Shown here: positions 2,948-19,766 of the stretch, one piece after another
Numbering within the stretch: the stretch's first letter is position 1
Layout of the letters: every line of letters begins with the position of its first letter
Origin: a virus
Length of the DNA stretch: 38,153 nucleotides
Reading direction: 5' to 3' (one strand)
IMG/VR virus record: IMGVR_UViG_3300034092_002053
Span: 1-38,153 of that record
Position numbers and translations under genes: made by a program
The notes under the pieces: model-generated
The model's database searches: none
What the model saw: only the letters and a program-made list of their open reading frames with translations
Told to the model about the DNA's origin: nothing

Positions 2948-3739
2948 ATGCGTTGGCTCGCGGCTCTCGTCGTCGCAGCGTCGCCGGTCATGGCCGGCAC
3001 GATCGACGAGTCGGTTGGCGACGCTCGCTACCTCGAGTACGGCGCGACCTTCGGCGAGTACGTCGTGCGGGTCACTGGTCCGACGCGAGACGGCGTGCCG
3101 CTCGCGGGCTCTGGCACGATGCTCTCGCCGTGCTGGGTGCTCACGGCGGCCCACGTCACCGATGAGATGATCGCGGTGGACGTGGTGACGCTGCGCCGAC
3201 GACACCGCGTGGACCGCGTGTTCGCGCACCGGGACTACCGCAGCGGCGACTACGGATGGCATGACATCGCCCTGCTCCACGTCGCCGAGCCGTTCACGGC
3301 CCGCGTCTACCCTGCCCTCTCGGACGCAACGGAACGCATCGGGACGGTCGCAGCCGCCGCGGGCTATGGCATGACGGGCTCGCTGTCAGTCGGGCTCCAG
3401 GGAGGCGACCAGAGGCTCAGGGCAGGCACCGTGTTCCTCGGGGCGATCGAGCGTGGCATCTACGTCTGCCCGATCCGGCGGACGCCCGACGCGGGTCCGC
3501 TGCCGCTGTGCATCGCGCCGGGCGACTCTGGTGGCCCGCTCTGGGCCACGGCGGCGGACGGGACGACGCGGTTGGTTGGCGTTCACTCGTGCGTCAGCCG
3601 GACGGGCGGCAAGGCGAGGTACGTGGTCGGTGAGGAGAGCGGGCACACACGCGTCTCGCTCTACCTCGACTGGATCGCGGAGGTGGCGGGCCCGCTTGAC
3701 GCGGCATGCACGATGCCGGGATGCCAACCGCCACGCTGA
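2948..3739 (+). CDS. Secreted trypsin-like (S1) serine protease
   Basis: This 263-residue protein starts with a signal peptide (MRWLAALVVAASPVMAG, cleavage probably near residue 17). The S1 catalytic triad is complete. His69 lies in VLTAAHV, Asp106 in HDIALLHV and Ser194 in PGDSGGPLW. Cysteines at 62, 174 and 188 and near the C-terminus could form disulfides. The predicted role is proteolysis outside the cytoplasm, but the substrate is unknown. Tailed phages rarely carry secreted chymotrypsin-fold proteases, and in this position (between small early genes and RusA) it is not obviously structural. The start has no Shine-Dalgarno and lies directly behind a promoter-like element. Fold assignment is secure and role is not. 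Confidence 0.85.
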   Translation: MRWLAALVVAASPVMAGTIDESVGDARYLEYGATFGEYVVRVTGPTRDGVPLAGSGTMLSPCWVLTAAHVTDEMIAVDVVTLRRRHRVDRVFAHRDYRSGDYGWHDIALLHVAEPFTARVYPALSDATERIGTVAAAAGYGMTGSLSVGLQGGDQRLRAGTVFLGAIERGIYVCPIRRTPDAGPLPLCIAPGDSGGPLWATAADGTTRLVGVHSCVSRTGGKARYVVGEESGHTRVSLYLDWIAEVAGPLDAACTMPGCQPPR

Positions 3740-4396: not shown

Positions 4397-4687
4397 ATGC
4401 GTTCGCTCGTCATCGTGCTCGCCTTGCTCGCCGCCTCGCCTGTCGTCGCTCAGCAGACGCACACGTACGTCTCGGCCCAGGCTCACGCCGAGCACCTCGC
4501 CGCGACCGGCACGTTCTCGCACTGCTCTCGCCGTGGCGGCGGATACGAAGGTATCGGCATGTCGTCGTCCTCGCCTGACGCGGCGATGCGCAACTGCTGC
4601 TACTGGGGGCAGCGTCGCGTCCGTGAGATCGGCACGGCGTGGAGTCCGCTGCGGCGGATGTGGGTCGCGGTCGTGAGGTACGAGTGA
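4397..4687 (+). CDS. Small secreted protein with Cys-pair motif
   Basis: This 96-residue protein has a clear signal peptide (MRSLVIVLALLAASPVVAQ). The mature part contains GTFSHCSRRGGGYEGIGMSS, then AMRNCCYWGQRR and a C-terminal strand with WVAVVRYE. Three cysteines (one plus a CC pair) could form disulfides. A GAGAGGAGA ribosome site precedes the ATG. It lies at the head of the glycosyltransferase cassette and its stop overlaps the next GTG. The family is not recognised. A periplasmic or surface role is inferred from the signal peptide alone. Confidence 0.65.
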   Translation: MRSLVIVLALLAASPVVAQQTHTYVSAQAHAEHLAATGTFSHCSRRGGGYEGIGMSSSSPDAAMRNCCYWGQRRVREIGTAWSPLRRMWVAVVRYE

Positions 4688-5310
4688 GCCTTGCAGTCCT
4701 CACCTATGCGACGCAAGAGACGCACGCGATGCGGCGGGCGATGGAGTCGTTCCGCCGCATCGGTGGCGTCGAGCCGGTGGTCGTCGGCATGGGCGACACG
4801 CACTCATGGCAGGGCCGCATTGCGGCGCTCTACGCGTGGTGCCTCGAGCACCCTGCCGCCAGCGTGCTCTGTGTCGATGCGTACGACACGTGCTGCGTGC
4901 GGTCGCTCTACGGACTGCTCTGCGGCGGACTGACATTCTCCGCAGAGGCGAACTGCTGGCCCGATCAAGAACGCGCAAACGACTACAAGCCGTGCGACAC
5001 GCGATACCGCTACGTGAATGCCGGCGTGTGGTTCGGCGAGGGCGGCGCGTACTGCCAGCTCGTCGAGGCTCGCGGGCTGCTGGCTGGCGTCACTGACGAT
5101 CAGCGTGCGTACACTGCGGCGCATCTCGCCGGCGAGCCGTTCGCCGTCGACCACCGATGCCACATCGCCCACAACCGTTACCTCGCGGAAGACGACTGGG
5201 AGATCCGCGACGGCATCTACTGGGTGAAGAGCACCGGCACCGCGCCGCTGGTTGTCCACGGCAACGGCGGCAGCAGCATCGACGTGGTGTGGGAGGCTTT
5301 CGGCGTATGA
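4684..5310 (+). CDS. PLOD-type glycosyltransferase (procollagen glycosyltransferase-like)
   Basis: This is a 208-residue enzyme resembling the glycosyltransferase domain of procollagen lysyl hydroxylases. The metal-binding acidic motif is VDAYD (Asp65-Asp68). FSAEANCWPD (about 85-94) matches the family FxAExxCWPD motif. YRYVNAGVWFG (about 108-118) matches the conserved 'YLNSGGFIG' loop, and DDQRAYT follows. It is expected to use a nucleotide sugar, and the acceptor is unknown. The GTG start at 4684 overlaps the previous stop as GTGA. This is the first of four glycosyltransferase-like genes in a row and is coupled to the methyltransferase downstream by an ATGA overlap. Confidence 0.75.
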   Translation: MSLAVLTYATQETHAMRRAMESFRRIGGVEPVVVGMGDTHSWQGRIAALYAWCLEHPAASVLCVDAYDTCCVRSLYGLLCGGLTFSAEANCWPDQERANDYKPCDTRYRYVNAGVWFGEGGAYCQLVEARGLLAGVTDDQRAYTAAHLAGEPFAVDHRCHIAHNRYLAEDDWEIRDGIYWVKSTGTAPLVVHGNGGSSIDVVWEAFGV

Positions 5311-15618: not shown

Positions 15619-15971
15619 GCGAGTTCAAGATGCGGCGTCGGTGCGTGACGTTTCCTGCCGTGCTGTCCACCTCGACGGCCGCGGCGACCACGCTGTACCT
15701 CGAGGACTTCGCCGGCGCAGTCATCGACATGGGCACGATTGCCACGGCCGTCACCACGCTGACGGTGCATGCCGCATCGGCCGACGCGGGCCCGTATCGA
15801 CCGCTCTACAGTGACGCTGGCGTGGCCGTGGCGATCTCGCTGGCACCGAGCACCACGACTGGCCGCGTCTACGCGTTGCCCGATGCAGCGTTCGCAGTGC
15901 CATTCGCCAAGCTCGTGGCCAACAACAGCGGAGCCGAGGGCGTCCCGGCGACGGTGACGATCAAGAGCTGA
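15615..15971 (+). CDS. Probable structural protein
   Basis: This 118-residue beta-rich protein contains RRRCVTFPAVLSTSTAAATT, TLTVHAASADAGPYRPLYSD, and YALPDAAFAVPFAKLVANNS. The 'ltvhaSadg..y.pl.d..G' arrangement is typical of small beta-sandwich virion proteins. It starts 44 bp behind a promoter-like element and overlaps the upstream stop (ATGA). No function is proven. Confidence 0.55.
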   Translation: MSEFKMRRRCVTFPAVLSTSTAAATTLYLEDFAGAVIDMGTIATAVTTLTVHAASADAGPYRPLYSDAGVAVAISLAPSTTTGRVYALPDAAFAVPFAKLVANNSGAEGVPATVTIKS

Positions 15972-16294
15972 TGCCGCAGCGGATACCAATCGCACGACCG
16001 CCCAGGCTGAGGACGGCACGCACACCAGAGTTGCGGCCAAACGGATACCAGCGGGGCTACTGCGACAAGCGGCATTTCGCGTGGCGTGTCGCGGTGCTGA
16101 CACGTGATGCCTGGACGTGCCGAGCCTGCGGGCGAGTGTGTGCCGACAAGTACGAAGCTCACGCTGACCACATCTCGCCGGTCGTGCATGGGACCGAGGT
16201 GTGCCGCGACGGGCGATCGCGATACGACGTGGATGGCGGGCAGTGCTTGTGCCATGCGTGCCACAATCGGAAGACGGCGGGAGAAAGCCGTTAG
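15971..16294 (+). CDS. HNH endonuclease, packaging type
   Basis: This 107-residue HNH protein has zinc-binding Cys50/Cys53 (WTCRACG), the catalytic ADHISPVV (His67), and CLCHACHNRKT with Cys94/Cys97 and Asn99. Small HNH proteins encoded beside the terminase genes are known to be required with the terminase for cos cleavage and packaging in HK97-like phages. This one fits in size and place, except that another HNH gene now lies between it and the small terminase. Its start overlaps the preceding stop. Confidence 0.8.
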   Translation: MPQRIPIARPPRLRTARTPELRPNGYQRGYCDKRHFAWRVAVLTRDAWTCRACGRVCADKYEAHADHISPVVHGTEVCRDGRSRYDVDGGQCLCHACHNRKTAGESR

Positions 16295-16344
16295 GTAAAC
16301 CGGCGTACACCTACTACACTAGTGCCGCCAAAAGGAGGTGGCGC

Positions 16345-17508
16345 ATGGTCGTGTTGGCGGTTGATTGCAGCGGAAGGACATCTACATGTTCCGGCTGCGG
16401 GAAATCCCTTGCGTGCCGTTCCGCCATAGGCAGGCTTCCAAAGTGGTGCGACCCTTGTCGTAAGGCGGCGAAAGCCAAGGGCGAGAAAGGAAGGAAGCGC
16501 AAGGCTTGGCAAGAATTGCAGTCCAAGCCGTGCGAGCAGTGCGGCCAAGAGTGGAAGCCAAAGAGACGATCGACTCGCTTCTGTAGCCCTCGCTGCAGGT
16601 CTCTTGCCAGCGGCGACAGGCTTGTTCTGTCTTGCGCCTGTTGCGGCGAGTCGTTTGAGTGTTGCTCTGCTTACGCGAAAGCCCGCAAGTACTGCTCTCG
16701 CGAGTGCAGCCGCAAGCATCACGGCGTGCAAGAGCGATCATGCGTTGAGTGCGGCAAGTCCTTCAAGAGATCTCCGCACTCGAGAGACAAGGCAAAGTAC
16801 TGCGGACGAGCGTGCTACTTCGCAGCGAGGAACGCAGGACGCCAAGCATGGGACAGGACCAGACAACTAGAAGGCGTGTGGCATCGCGGTGGACCGTGGG
16901 CCTGCGCTCCGTCCAAGAAGCCGATGCAAGAGATGATGACTAACATGGGCCACTTTCTCGGCAAGTTGCGAATACTCTACGGCAAGGCAGTGCGGAAGAT
17001 GCCTGCATGCGAGACGTGCGGAGAGCCATGCAAAAGGGAAGAAGCAAGGTTCTGTTCACCGAAGTGCTGTGGCCAGAACGTTGTCCAAGTCGAGTGCCAC
17101 AAGTGCGGTTCGCAATGCGAGCGACGTGGAGTCGGCAAAAAGGCGATGTGCTATGGATGCAAAGAAGCAGCAAGAAAGGAAGAGCTGCGGAGGCGGCGAG
17201 AAACGTACGGCCGCAATCACCCTAGCCGCGCAAGGCACTTGGGAGTGAAGTGTGCAAGATTCCCGCGCAAGACTGTCTTTGAGCGTGACGGCTGGAGGTG
17301 CCAGCTTTGCGGCAAGCCTGTTCTCCGCAAGACGACTTACCGCAAGCCAGATGGCAAGATTCATTCCCGGTCGCCAACCGTTGACTGCATTGTTCCTATG
17401 AGCAGAGGCGGCAACTACGAACCAGACAACTGCCAGACCGCGTGCTTCATATGCAACAGCAGGAAGGGCGCAAGGTTGTTGGGGCAGATGCGCCTGCCTC
17501 TTTCGTAG
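16345..17508 (+). CDS. Multi-zinc-module HNH endonuclease-like protein (probable mobile gene)
   Basis: This is a 387-residue Cys-rich protein. Residues 1-275 hold about six four-Cys modules, for example C15-C18/C35-C38, C63-C66/C80-C84, C97-C100/C117-C121, C133-C136/C153-C157, C222-C225/C237-C241 and C251-C254/C269-C272. Several have the FCSPxC or YCSRxC form. The C-terminal HNH domain runs VFERDGWRCQLCGKPV, VDCIVPMSRGG, DNCQTACFICNSRKGARL. The residue after Asp347 is Cys where the general-base His is usual. AAAGGAGG precedes the ATG. Lys-rich, less GC-rich codon use and the position between the packaging HNH and the terminase suggest a free-standing homing-type insertion. Confidence 0.75.
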   Translation: MVVLAVDCSGRTSTCSGCGKSLACRSAIGRLPKWCDPCRKAAKAKGEKGRKRKAWQELQSKPCEQCGQEWKPKRRSTRFCSPRCRSLASGDRLVLSCACCGESFECCSAYAKARKYCSRECSRKHHGVQERSCVECGKSFKRSPHSRDKAKYCGRACYFAARNAGRQAWDRTRQLEGVWHRGGPWACAPSKKPMQEMMTNMGHFLGKLRILYGKAVRKMPACETCGEPCKREEARFCSPKCCGQNVVQVECHKCGSQCERRGVGKKAMCYGCKEAARKEELRRRRETYGRNHPSRARHLGVKCARFPRKTVFERDGWRCQLCGKPVLRKTTYRKPDGKIHSRSPTVDCIVPMSRGGNYEPDNCQTACFICNSRKGARLLGQMRLPLS

Positions 17509-17692
17509 GCAAGCATATGCCAGGGAGGGGTGTTCTTGCCGGGGGTCGTGAGGAAAGCCCGCTGTTCCTATGGGGGAGGACGGGCGAGGGTAACGCCGCG
17601 GGGGTAGGTCTCGCCACCTTTTACCCACCCCAAGTCACGCCACCACAGACTGCCGCCGCATAATTCATCAGCACGTTTTGCGAGCACAAACA
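17509..17692. other. 184-bp non-coding gap upstream of the small terminase
   Basis: This is the largest gap in the window. It contains several G-runs, a weak dyad (AGGT-CTCGCC-ACCT, near 17606) followed by TTTTACCC, and a local AT-rich pocket with CATAAT near 17660. It is a reasonable place for a promoter or a cos site, but no exact match to either was recognised. Confidence 0.3.
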
Positions 17693-18196
17693 ATGGGCAG
17701 ACGCGGACCAAAACCGCAGCCGACGCAACTCAAGATTCTCCGCGGCAACCCTGGCAAGCAGGCGTTGAACGCTAACGAGCCGCAGCCGCCAGCGGATGGC
17801 GTGACGATGCCGTCGCACCTCGGCGAGGTTGCCGCCCGACGCTGGGGAGAGCTCCTACCGATGCTCCAGGCGACCCGCGTGATGACGCGGGCGGATGTCG
17901 AGGCGCTCGCCCGCTACTGCGACACGTACGAATGGTGGCTGGCGGTGCGTGCGAAACTCAAGGCCGAGGGCGACACGTACCCGATCCTCAACGACGGCGG
18001 CGAGGTGAAGTACATCGCGCAGCGTCCTGAGGTGGCGATCGCTCACAAGCTCGCCCAGCAGTTGCGGCAACTCGAGTCGGATTTCGGTCTGAGCCCGGCG
18101 GCTCGCGTGTCGCTGAAGGTCGAGAGTGATGACAAGCCGCAAAGCGCGCTCGAAAAGTTCCGTGCTCTCCGCGCTGCCCGACAGGCGAAGACCTGA
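17693..18196 (+). CDS. terS: Phage terminase small subunit, P27 family
   Basis: This 167-residue protein begins MGRRGPKPQPTQLKILRGNP, the typical P27-family N-terminus ('GRrGPkPtPt.lK.lrGNp'). HLGEVAARRWGELLPMLQ and MTRADVEALARYCDTYEWW follow, the usual helices. It would bind the packaging site and regulate the large subunit. The ATG at 17693 is chosen over an upstream TTG because homology begins with the MGRRGPKP block. Its end overlaps the large-subunit frame. Confidence 0.9.
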   Translation: MGRRGPKPQPTQLKILRGNPGKQALNANEPQPPADGVTMPSHLGEVAARRWGELLPMLQATRVMTRADVEALARYCDTYEWWLAVRAKLKAEGDTYPILNDGGEVKYIAQRPEVAIAHKLAQQLRQLESDFGLSPAARVSLKVESDDKPQSALEKFRALRAARQAKT

Positions 18197-19766
18197 GAAG
18201 GTCGCGGGATGCCGGTTCGACCAAGACGCCGCCGATACGGTAGCGGACTTCATCGAGTCGATGTGCTGTCACACGAAGGACTCGCCGACCGCGAAGGCTG
18301 GCGATCCGATGCGCGTGCTCGACTGGCACCGGCACCACGTCATCGAGCCGCTGTATGGATGGAAGACCGAGGAAGGCGACGTTCGCCGCTACCGTCTCGC
18401 GTACATCGAGGTGCCGAAGAAAAACGCGAAGTCCACCCTGCTCTCCTGCCTCTCGATTTGGCACCTGCTGATGGAGGGCGACGGCGAGCTCGGGTGCATC
18501 GCCGCGAAGGACCGCAACCAAGCGGCGATCATCTTCGACGAGACGGCGGCGATGGTGAAGCGGTCGCCGGAACTGCGCGATGCCCTGGAGGTGGTGGACT
18601 CGCGGAAGACGATCGTTTGTCACGCGACCGGCTCGAGCATGCGTGTCATCTCGCGTGACGCTGGTGCCGCAGAGGGTCCGTCCTACTCGTTCGTGTTTTG
18701 CGACGAGCTCCATGCGTGGCCCGACAGGAGGCTATTCGAGGCGCTCCGCTACTCGGGTCGCTCGCGTCCGCAGCCGTTGCTCGTGACGATCACGACCGCG
18801 GGGGACCGCCGCGACACGATCTGCTGGGAGCAGCACGAGTACGCGGAGCAGGTCATCGCGGACCCGAACTACGACCCCCGCTTCTACGGCAAGATTTTCG
18901 CCGCGAAAACGGACGGCAGCGACGACTACTTCGACCCGTCGGTCTGGCGTCGCGTGAACCCCGGCATGGGGATCACGATGACGGAGGAGTCATTCGCCGC
19001 GGATGCCCAGGAGGCGAGGAACAAGGCGAGCAAGCTCAACGGGTGGCTGCGGTACTCGCTCGGGGTGTGGACCGAGAGCAGCACGCGGTGGCTGGACCCG
19101 GAGAAGTGGGCCGCGTGCTCGGCGGGCCCGACGACGCCTTTCGCAGGGCGGAAGTGCATCCTCGGACTCGACCTGTCGAAGACGACCGACCTGTCGGCGA
19201 TGGTCGCCCTGTACCCGTGCGAGGGCGACGAGTTCGAGGTGGACGCGATGTTCTGGAGCCCTCGCGACCTCATCATGGAACGGGAGCGAACCGACCGCCA
19301 ACCGTTCCAGCACTGGGTAAATAGTGGGTTCATCACGGCGACCGACGGGAACATCATCGACCACTCGGCGATCCGCGAGTTTGTCCTGGAGTACGCGAAG
19401 ACCCACAACGTCGAGCGGGTCTACATGGACTTGAACGGGGCGGTTCAGTTGGCCGTGGAACTGCAAGGGGCTGGGTTGGCCGTGGAAGGATGGTCGCAGG
19501 GCTTTCGCGGCATGAGCAGCCCGAGCAAGCGGCTCGAGTCGCTGGTCATGCAGCAGAAGATCCGCCACGGCGGCAACCCGGTCCTGTCGTGGATGGCTGG
19601 CTGCGTGACGATCGAAACGAACGCGTATGAGGACATCCGCCCTGTGAAGAAGAAATCCACGGGCCGCATCGACGGCATCGTGGCGCTCATCTTCGCCCTC
19701 GGCGGATGGGAGCAGCACCAGTTCAAGAACCAGCCCGGCGCGGAACCCTCCATCCTCTTCCTATGA
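18126..19766 (+). CDS. terL: Phage terminase large subunit
   Basis: This 546-residue motor/nuclease matches the HK97-like Terminase_1 group. The Walker A-like motif is IEVPKKNAKST (about 95-104), Walker B is FVFCDELHAW (Asp193, Glu194), and a nuclease-domain Asp349 lies in CILGLDLSKTTDLSA. MDLNGAVQLAVELQ and the C-terminal TGRIDGIVALIFALGG complete the nuclease domain. It cuts concatemers and pumps DNA into the prohead. The start is uncertain: GTG 18126, ATG 18129 or GTG 18162 are possible, all overlapping terS. An AACTGCAAG element lies inside the gene at 19459. Confidence 0.92.
   Translation: MMTSRKARSKSSVLSALPDRRRPEKVAGCRFDQDAADTVADFIESMCCHTKDSPTAKAGDPMRVLDWHRHHVIEPLYGWKTEEGDVRRYRLAYIEVPKKNAKSTLLSCLSIWHLLMEGDGELGCIAAKDRNQAAIIFDETAAMVKRSPELRDALEVVDSRKTIVCHATGSSMRVISRDAGAAEGPSYSFVFCDELHAWPDRRLFEALRYSGRSRPQPLLVTITTAGDRRDTICWEQHEYAEQVIADPNYDPRFYGKIFAAKTDGSDDYFDPSVWRRVNPGMGITMTEESFAADAQEARNKASKLNGWLRYSLGVWTESSTRWLDPEKWAACSAGPTTPFAGRKCILGLDLSKTTDLSAMVALYPCEGDEFEVDAMFWSPRDLIMERERTDRQPFQHWVNSGFITATDGNIIDHSAIREFVLEYAKTHNVERVYMDLNGAVQLAVELQGAGLAVEGWSQGFRGMSSPSKRLESLVMQQKIRHGGNPVLSWMAGCVTIETNAYEDIRPVKKKSTGRIDGIVALIFALGGWEQHQFKNQPGAEPSILFL
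19459..19491 (+). promoter_or_regulatory. Promoter-like element AACTGCAAG-N18-AAGGAT inside terL
   Basis: AACTGCAAG at 19459-19467 is followed after 18 bp by AAGGAT (19486-19491). This is the same spacing as the other four copies, but without the CGG that follows their second box. It lies about 270 bp upstream of the portal gene and could be an internal promoter or chance. Confidence 0.25.

Follow-up and report, generated by a model that had tools for sequence, protein, structure and literature searches.

Organization of the locus

The window, that is, the whole stretch of DNA analysed here, comprises the 38,153 nucleotides of the IMG/VR virus record IMGVR_UViG_3300034092_002053. Within it, a gene for a Cys-rich protein (40 Cys in 387 residues) lies between a small HNH gene, HNH1, and the terminase genes terS and terL, which are followed by the portal gene. 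The features are as follows.

15971..16294, + strand: upstream small HNH gene (HNH1), 107 aa, PHROG 589, in the HK97 gp74-like place
16295..16344, + strand: leader travelling with the gene, with a GTGTACTTAGTACACTAGTGCCGCC-like element (degenerate in the window) and the AAGGAGGTGG ribosome site
16345..17508, + strand: Cys-rich zinc-array HNH gene, 387 aa
16387..16815, + strand: four-Cys modules 1-4 (residues 15-38, 63-84, 97-121, 133-157)
16840..17004, + strand: Cys-poor, partly helical segment (residues 166-220, WHRGG...QEMxxNM)
17008..17160, + strand: four-Cys modules 5-6 (residues 222-241, 251-272)
17269..17505, + strand: HNH domain (residues 309-387), fold like Cas9 HNH, PacI and Gme HNH
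17386..17388, + strand: codon TGC, Cys348 replacing the HNH general-base His (VDCIVP, not VDHIVP)
17535..17692, + strand: right flank homologous to gene-less relatives (left-of-cos sequence, cos, terS leader)
17568..17569, no strand: predicted cos cut; the left genome end, from 17569, begins TATGGGGGAGG
17693..18196, + strand: terS (Terminase_4, PHROG 83)
18126..19766: TerL

Six copies of the pattern C-x2-C...C-x2/3-C precede the C-terminal HNH domain, in agreement with the preliminary description and borne out by the module scan, Pfam and PHROG. The Pfam HNH profile covers residues 319-377 (E 1.8e-8, above the Pfam cut-off) and PHROG 1271 matches with E 3.2e-33, placing the protein in the HNH (beta-beta-alpha-metal) superfamily by sequence as well as by predicted fold. 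The four-Cys modules gave no match of their own in the Pfam search of the window protein. The AlphaFold model, based on 32 aligned sequences, showed a mean pLDDT of 86.5 and a pTM of 0.40, with pLDDT mostly 80-95 across modules 1-4; as modelled, the small modules are confident and their mutual arrangement is uncertain. Clear fold matches were obtained for the HNH end alone (Cas9 HNH, PacI and Gme HNH, Z 5-7) in a fold search that barely covered the modules. One other HNH type (L013, L021) also has the Cys-poor segment. The four-Cys array presumably functions in DNA binding.

The gene is less GC-rich than the whole window (58.0% versus 65.2%), and its product is Lys-rich (9.6%, the highest of 14 genes measured), as had been described. 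Its GC3 is 0.665 against 0.72-0.87 for the neighbours, a low value likewise found for the tape-measure gene (0.670). It also has the ribosome site of its own that had been noted, a strong one (AAAAGGAGGTGGCGC-ATG). Several genes of different HNH types in this position (L001, L013, L149) have the leader GTGTACTTAGTACACTAGTGCC..CCACAAGGAGGTGGC-ATG in common, and a 15-bp leader palindrome, GTGTACTTAGTACAC, is exact in L001 and L149 and degenerate in the window.

The flank lengths given earlier, 50 and 184 bp, are correct. The idea that they stand out in an otherwise gap-free region holds for the lengths themselves, but the 184-bp right flank consists of cos and the terS leader. An insertion scar as the origin of this flank is ruled out because gene-less relatives have the same cos and terS leader. 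For terS, a TTG start at 17678 was considered and the ATG at 17693 was preferred.

The cos column was set by aligning the contigs of relatives. Ends of these contigs are strongly over-represented, relative to expectation, just upstream of terS: 21 of 76 lie at a distance of 30-160 bp, against 35 in the whole stretch between 300 and 3000 bp. The column equivalent to window position 17569 (TATGGG...) is the exact start of nine aligned contigs. A few contigs covering the other side of cos end 26-79 bp past the stops of the homologous genes. The cut is thus likely to lie at 17568/17569, and the window gene would come last on the linear chromosome, its stop 60 bp from the right end. The location near cos that had been suggested is therefore borne out by contig ends and alignment.

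Elsewhere in the window, two genes of the phage's early region stand out: at 2948-3739, one for a trypsin-like protease (Pfam Trypsin, E 2.8e-16), and at 4639-5310, one resembling PLOD-type glycosyltransferases.

Presence, absence and borders among relatives

Relatives were collected by TerL, TerS and HNH1 scans; nearly all are metagenomic contigs, and they are not independent samples. A total of 62 distinct sequences, window included, span HNH1 to terS. Of these, 37 have no Cys-rich gene at this junction; it is occupied by a Cys-rich HNH gene in 22 and by other cargo in 3. The gene therefore splits an HNH-terS pair, as had been proposed, and the outcome named beforehand as contrary to an inserted gene, its carriage by all relatives with matching composition, was not found. 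HNH1 is retained with or without the Cys-rich gene, and keeps the catalytic D-H. In the gene-less relatives the gap between HNH1 and terS is 99-213 bp, except in L112, where it is 306 bp and still includes the 3' remnant of a Cys-rich gene since lost.

By their HNH motifs, the Cys-rich HNH genes fall into at least four types. Types A (window and L001), C and D sit between HNH1 and cos while type B sits between cos and terS, indicating that both sides of cos are used. The Cys-rich HNH open reading frame on the terS side (L111, L115, L116, L127, L137, L142, L147) overlaps terS by about 115 bp in another frame. Four contigs with a different TerS type (39-41% identity; L038, L046, L055, L159) have other cargo in the cos-terS interval, which in L038 and L055 is a DNA-methyltransferase-like gene (...FLGSGTTLIAAEQLGRKCYGMEISPQYCDVIVKRW) upstream of terS.

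The preliminary description had suggested comparing phages with and without the gene, and such occupied and empty pairs define the borders. In L132 versus L066, 1015 bp replaces 29 bp, almost exactly from ATG to stop, with flanks of 93.5/88.5% identity; in L135 versus L068, almost exactly one open reading frame, from start to stop codon, likewise replaces 29 bp. Similarly, 984 bp replaces 15 bp in L071 versus L024, and 1158 bp replaces 65 bp in L021 versus L011. The 3' end of HNH1 (about codon 105) is the shared left border. Thus the gene is present or absent between conserved genes, with an uninterrupted site in relatives where the borders are exact. For the window itself the borders are approximate, blurred on the left near HNH1 codons 100-105 and on the right from 17509 to about 17535.

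No relative of the window gene was found in the genome contig collection, nor a second copy in the window's own record. Phage records hold no close relative, the best match having 73% coverage at 28.5% identity, with 47% over the HNH part only. A family-A profile scan of viral contigs yielded L001 again and nothing further.

Mobility, mosaic genes and terminase exchange

On a TerL tree of 58 rows, presence or absence changes at least 18 times, and even if only well-supported branches are counted, the type-B and empty labels must change 9-10 times. Near-identical terminases differ in their state at the locus. L074 and L075 carry the gene, in versions of just 73.5% amino acid identity, and L076 lacks it, although the TerL proteins of all three are 98% identical. 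Likewise, L063, L065 and L132 have the gene and L068 and L069 do not, with TerL 97-98% identical. The genes themselves are mosaic: identity between L115 and L116 is 62-70% over the first half but rises to 94-98% over the second, and L021 and L071 are 100% identical over the first 90 nt and about 70% thereafter. These intragenic mosaics indicate that zinc modules have been swapped onto similar nuclease ends. For the family as a whole, the TerL comparisons and mosaics point to transfer independent of the surrounding genome.

The locus is also a boundary of larger exchanges. The HNH1 and portal of L149 match those of the window at 83% and 82%, but its TerS and TerL only at 30% and 36%. For the set of L149, L154, L171, L175 and L198 the values are 69-83% (HNH1), 60-82% (portal) and only 28-38% (TerS/TerL), indicating exchange of the terminase pair, as a cassette lying between cos and the portal, with the locus as one boundary.

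A probable homing-endonuclease-like cassette beside cos

As judged from these comparisons, the gene is optional: it has repeatedly entered and left the locus or given way there to other Cys-rich HNH genes, its borders are sharp, and HNH1 and the terminase persist. An optional, replaceable gene with sharp borders and a modular DNA-binding part at an exchange hot spot fits the free-standing homing endonuclease genes, and we consider it fairly probable that the window gene is a cassette of this kind in a hot spot flanking cos. In mixed infection, the endonuclease would act on the allele without the gene, cutting it in the cos/terS/terL region, and recombination repair would copy the cassette together with nearby markers. 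The four-Cys array would supply DNA binding, and module swapping would alter its target. Since free-standing homing endonucleases usually cleave sites hundreds to thousands of bp away from the genes that encode them (PMC2988022), the target need not be the HNH-terS junction itself. A free-standing homing endonuclease had been proposed from the outset; insertion and mobile behaviour (tree, borders, mosaics) support it, but a His-to-Cys change counts against activity of the window allele. Cleavage and homing by the cassette are what we infer; of this scheme, only DNA binding and inheritance are likely to hold for the window's own allele.

Replacement of the general-base His

In the window protein, the HNH motif is VDCIVPM...DNCQTACFICN. 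Cys348 aligns with the D-H His of ZRANB3, Gme HNH and Cas9, so that D347-C348 stands in place of the canonical catalytic D-H pair. The aligned His is catalytic in ZRANB3, where H1021A abolishes cleavage (PMC5481773). Among distinct homologous C-termini, 79 of 83 have D-H; D-C is found in the window, in L001, its nearest relative, and in the distant L224, and L057 is disrupted. In L224, a distant HNH homologue (open reading frame 1355-2176) reads PDCVVPMSKGG, with D-C for D-H by a perhaps independent change.

Overall identity between the window and L001 proteins is 65%, rising to 80% within the HNH domain. Their dN/dS is about 0.12 in the HNH domain, like that of TerL; values were obtained from the HNH and some module regions only, dS being saturated for the whole gene. 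Since the Cys is common to a relative of 65% identity and dN/dS of the domain is low, the change is old and has left selection on the domain unrelaxed. From sequence comparison, the change is a derived one, in the window protein and L001, in a domain under purifying selection.

Because Cys348 replaces the general-base His, cleavage by the window allele is in doubt, and one alternative is serious for this allele: a domesticated, cleavage-dead DNA-binding protein, for example an autorepressor, an end protector or a decoy occupying the site against competing endonucleases. Such a role agrees with the Cys shared by the window and L001, with purifying selection on the domain and with the palindromic leader upstream of the genes in L001 and L149. 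However, the remaining active-site residues (D347, N362 and N371) and the zinc ligands of the HNH domain are retained. In addition, PacI has a Tyr positioned as general base (PMC4081073), indicating that the residue at this position can vary. On balance we regard domestication as unlikely.

A more specific proposal is offered tentatively. The window lineage may have swapped its general-base His for Cys and stayed functional, either as a Cys-based HNH nuclease or as a cleavage-silent cos-binding exclusion factor, in a two-sided cos hot spot of competing, mutually replacing zinc-array nucleases with swappable modules.

Comparison with known systems

The mob and seg genes of T-even phages, including Hef/SegH replacing mobE/mobC (PMC2988022), resemble the window locus in being optional between conserved genes, in same-place replacement and in that several are promoterless cassettes. 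In contrast to these free-standing HNH/GIY-YIG genes, the locus described here lies to either side of cos and has an N-terminal four-Cys array as its DNA-binding part, and the catalytic His is missing from the window allele. The T5orf172 homing endonucleases (Barth et al. 2023, PMC10448857) likewise have beads-on-a-string Zn-finger arrays with module shuffling and are tied to the terminase and to exchange boundaries, but the nuclease domain here is HNH and the finger type differs by Cys spacing. For such nucleases, the region upstream of the terminase has been described as a hot spot (PMC10448857). PacI combines an HNH fold and Cys4 sites with a non-His general base, Tyr (PMC4081073), and is a weak fold match to the window protein. 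It is, however, a restriction enzyme without an array, and the window protein has Cys, not Tyr. A cos-flanking locus resembling homing endonuclease genes is thus of a kind already known; the two-sided site, the shuffled zinc arrays and the derived His-to-Cys change are new.

Cluster F1 (Cheoctovirus) mycobacteriophages have, as here, a small HNH gene and then a Cys-rich HNH gene, the last before the right genome end (IrishSherpFalk gp105/gp106; Shauna1 gp106/gp107). The F1 homologue is 47% identical to the window protein over the C-terminal HNH part, but has a shorter array, in a protein of 247 aa, and an intact D-H. In Bubbles123, a viable F1 mycobacteriophage, about 556 bp is deleted inside the homologue.

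These comparisons bear on a second alternative, a packaging factor, that is, a second gp74-like HNH protein helping the terminase to cut or process cos. The HK97 gp74-type packaging HNH gene, a precedent discussed in PMC10448857, lies beside cos and the terminase as the window gene does. The strict position beside cos and the gene order agree with this role, the order HNH1-gene-TerS being still the same where TerL is as distant as 35% identity, in a distant set found with the gene itself as query and so biased towards presence. A conserved packaging module would not be expected to lose the gene in more than half of the relatives though HNH1 stays, to hold it on either side of cos or to tolerate the natural deletion in Bubbles123, and the window copy is without the catalytic His. 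We therefore judge this role improbable for the optional window gene; HNH1 fits the gp74 type and is the better candidate. Recent decay, with the gene an ordinary homing endonuclease gene about to be lost, as suggested by how common losses are at the locus (the L112 remnant, Bubbles123) and by the disrupted L057 copy, is very improbable for the window gene, whose open reading frame is intact, whose ribosome site is strong and whose Cys, shared with L001 in a domain of low dN/dS, is old.

A hairpin within TerL of relatives

In about 20 contigs, the window not among them, a stable hairpin with a 17-bp stem (about -38 kcal/mol) splits TerL precisely at the Walker A codons; it is located at 6283-6350 of L081 with equivalents in L070, L078, L079, L080, L082, L083, L044, L249, L250, L257-L267 and L270. 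The junction reads IEVPKKN-GGC / GTCTTGGCCCC...GGGGCCAAG... / GG(C/A)-KSTLL, and the take-off and landing Gly codons are 47, 48 (with an in-frame TGA), 49 or 50 nt apart. The reading frame is therefore not maintained, but in every case the protein picks up again at G-KST. The insert was not found in the genome contig collection. It is a strong candidate for translational bypassing like that of T4 gene 60, or for RNA removal, in divergent TerL genes. The 50-nt bypass of T4 is thought to guard against a neighbouring homing endonuclease (PMC5009743), and the TerL hairpin may in this way be linked to the cos hot spot.

Implications

The near-isogenic pairs with and without the gene at a phage genome end make homing beside cos directly testable, together with its link to the exchange of terminase modules and the selfish versus packaging role of terminase-adjacent HNH genes, cultured mycobacteriophages included. 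The module-swapped arrays form a natural series of DNA-binding variants, and the conserved His-to-Cys change would probe the tolerance of HNH chemistry.
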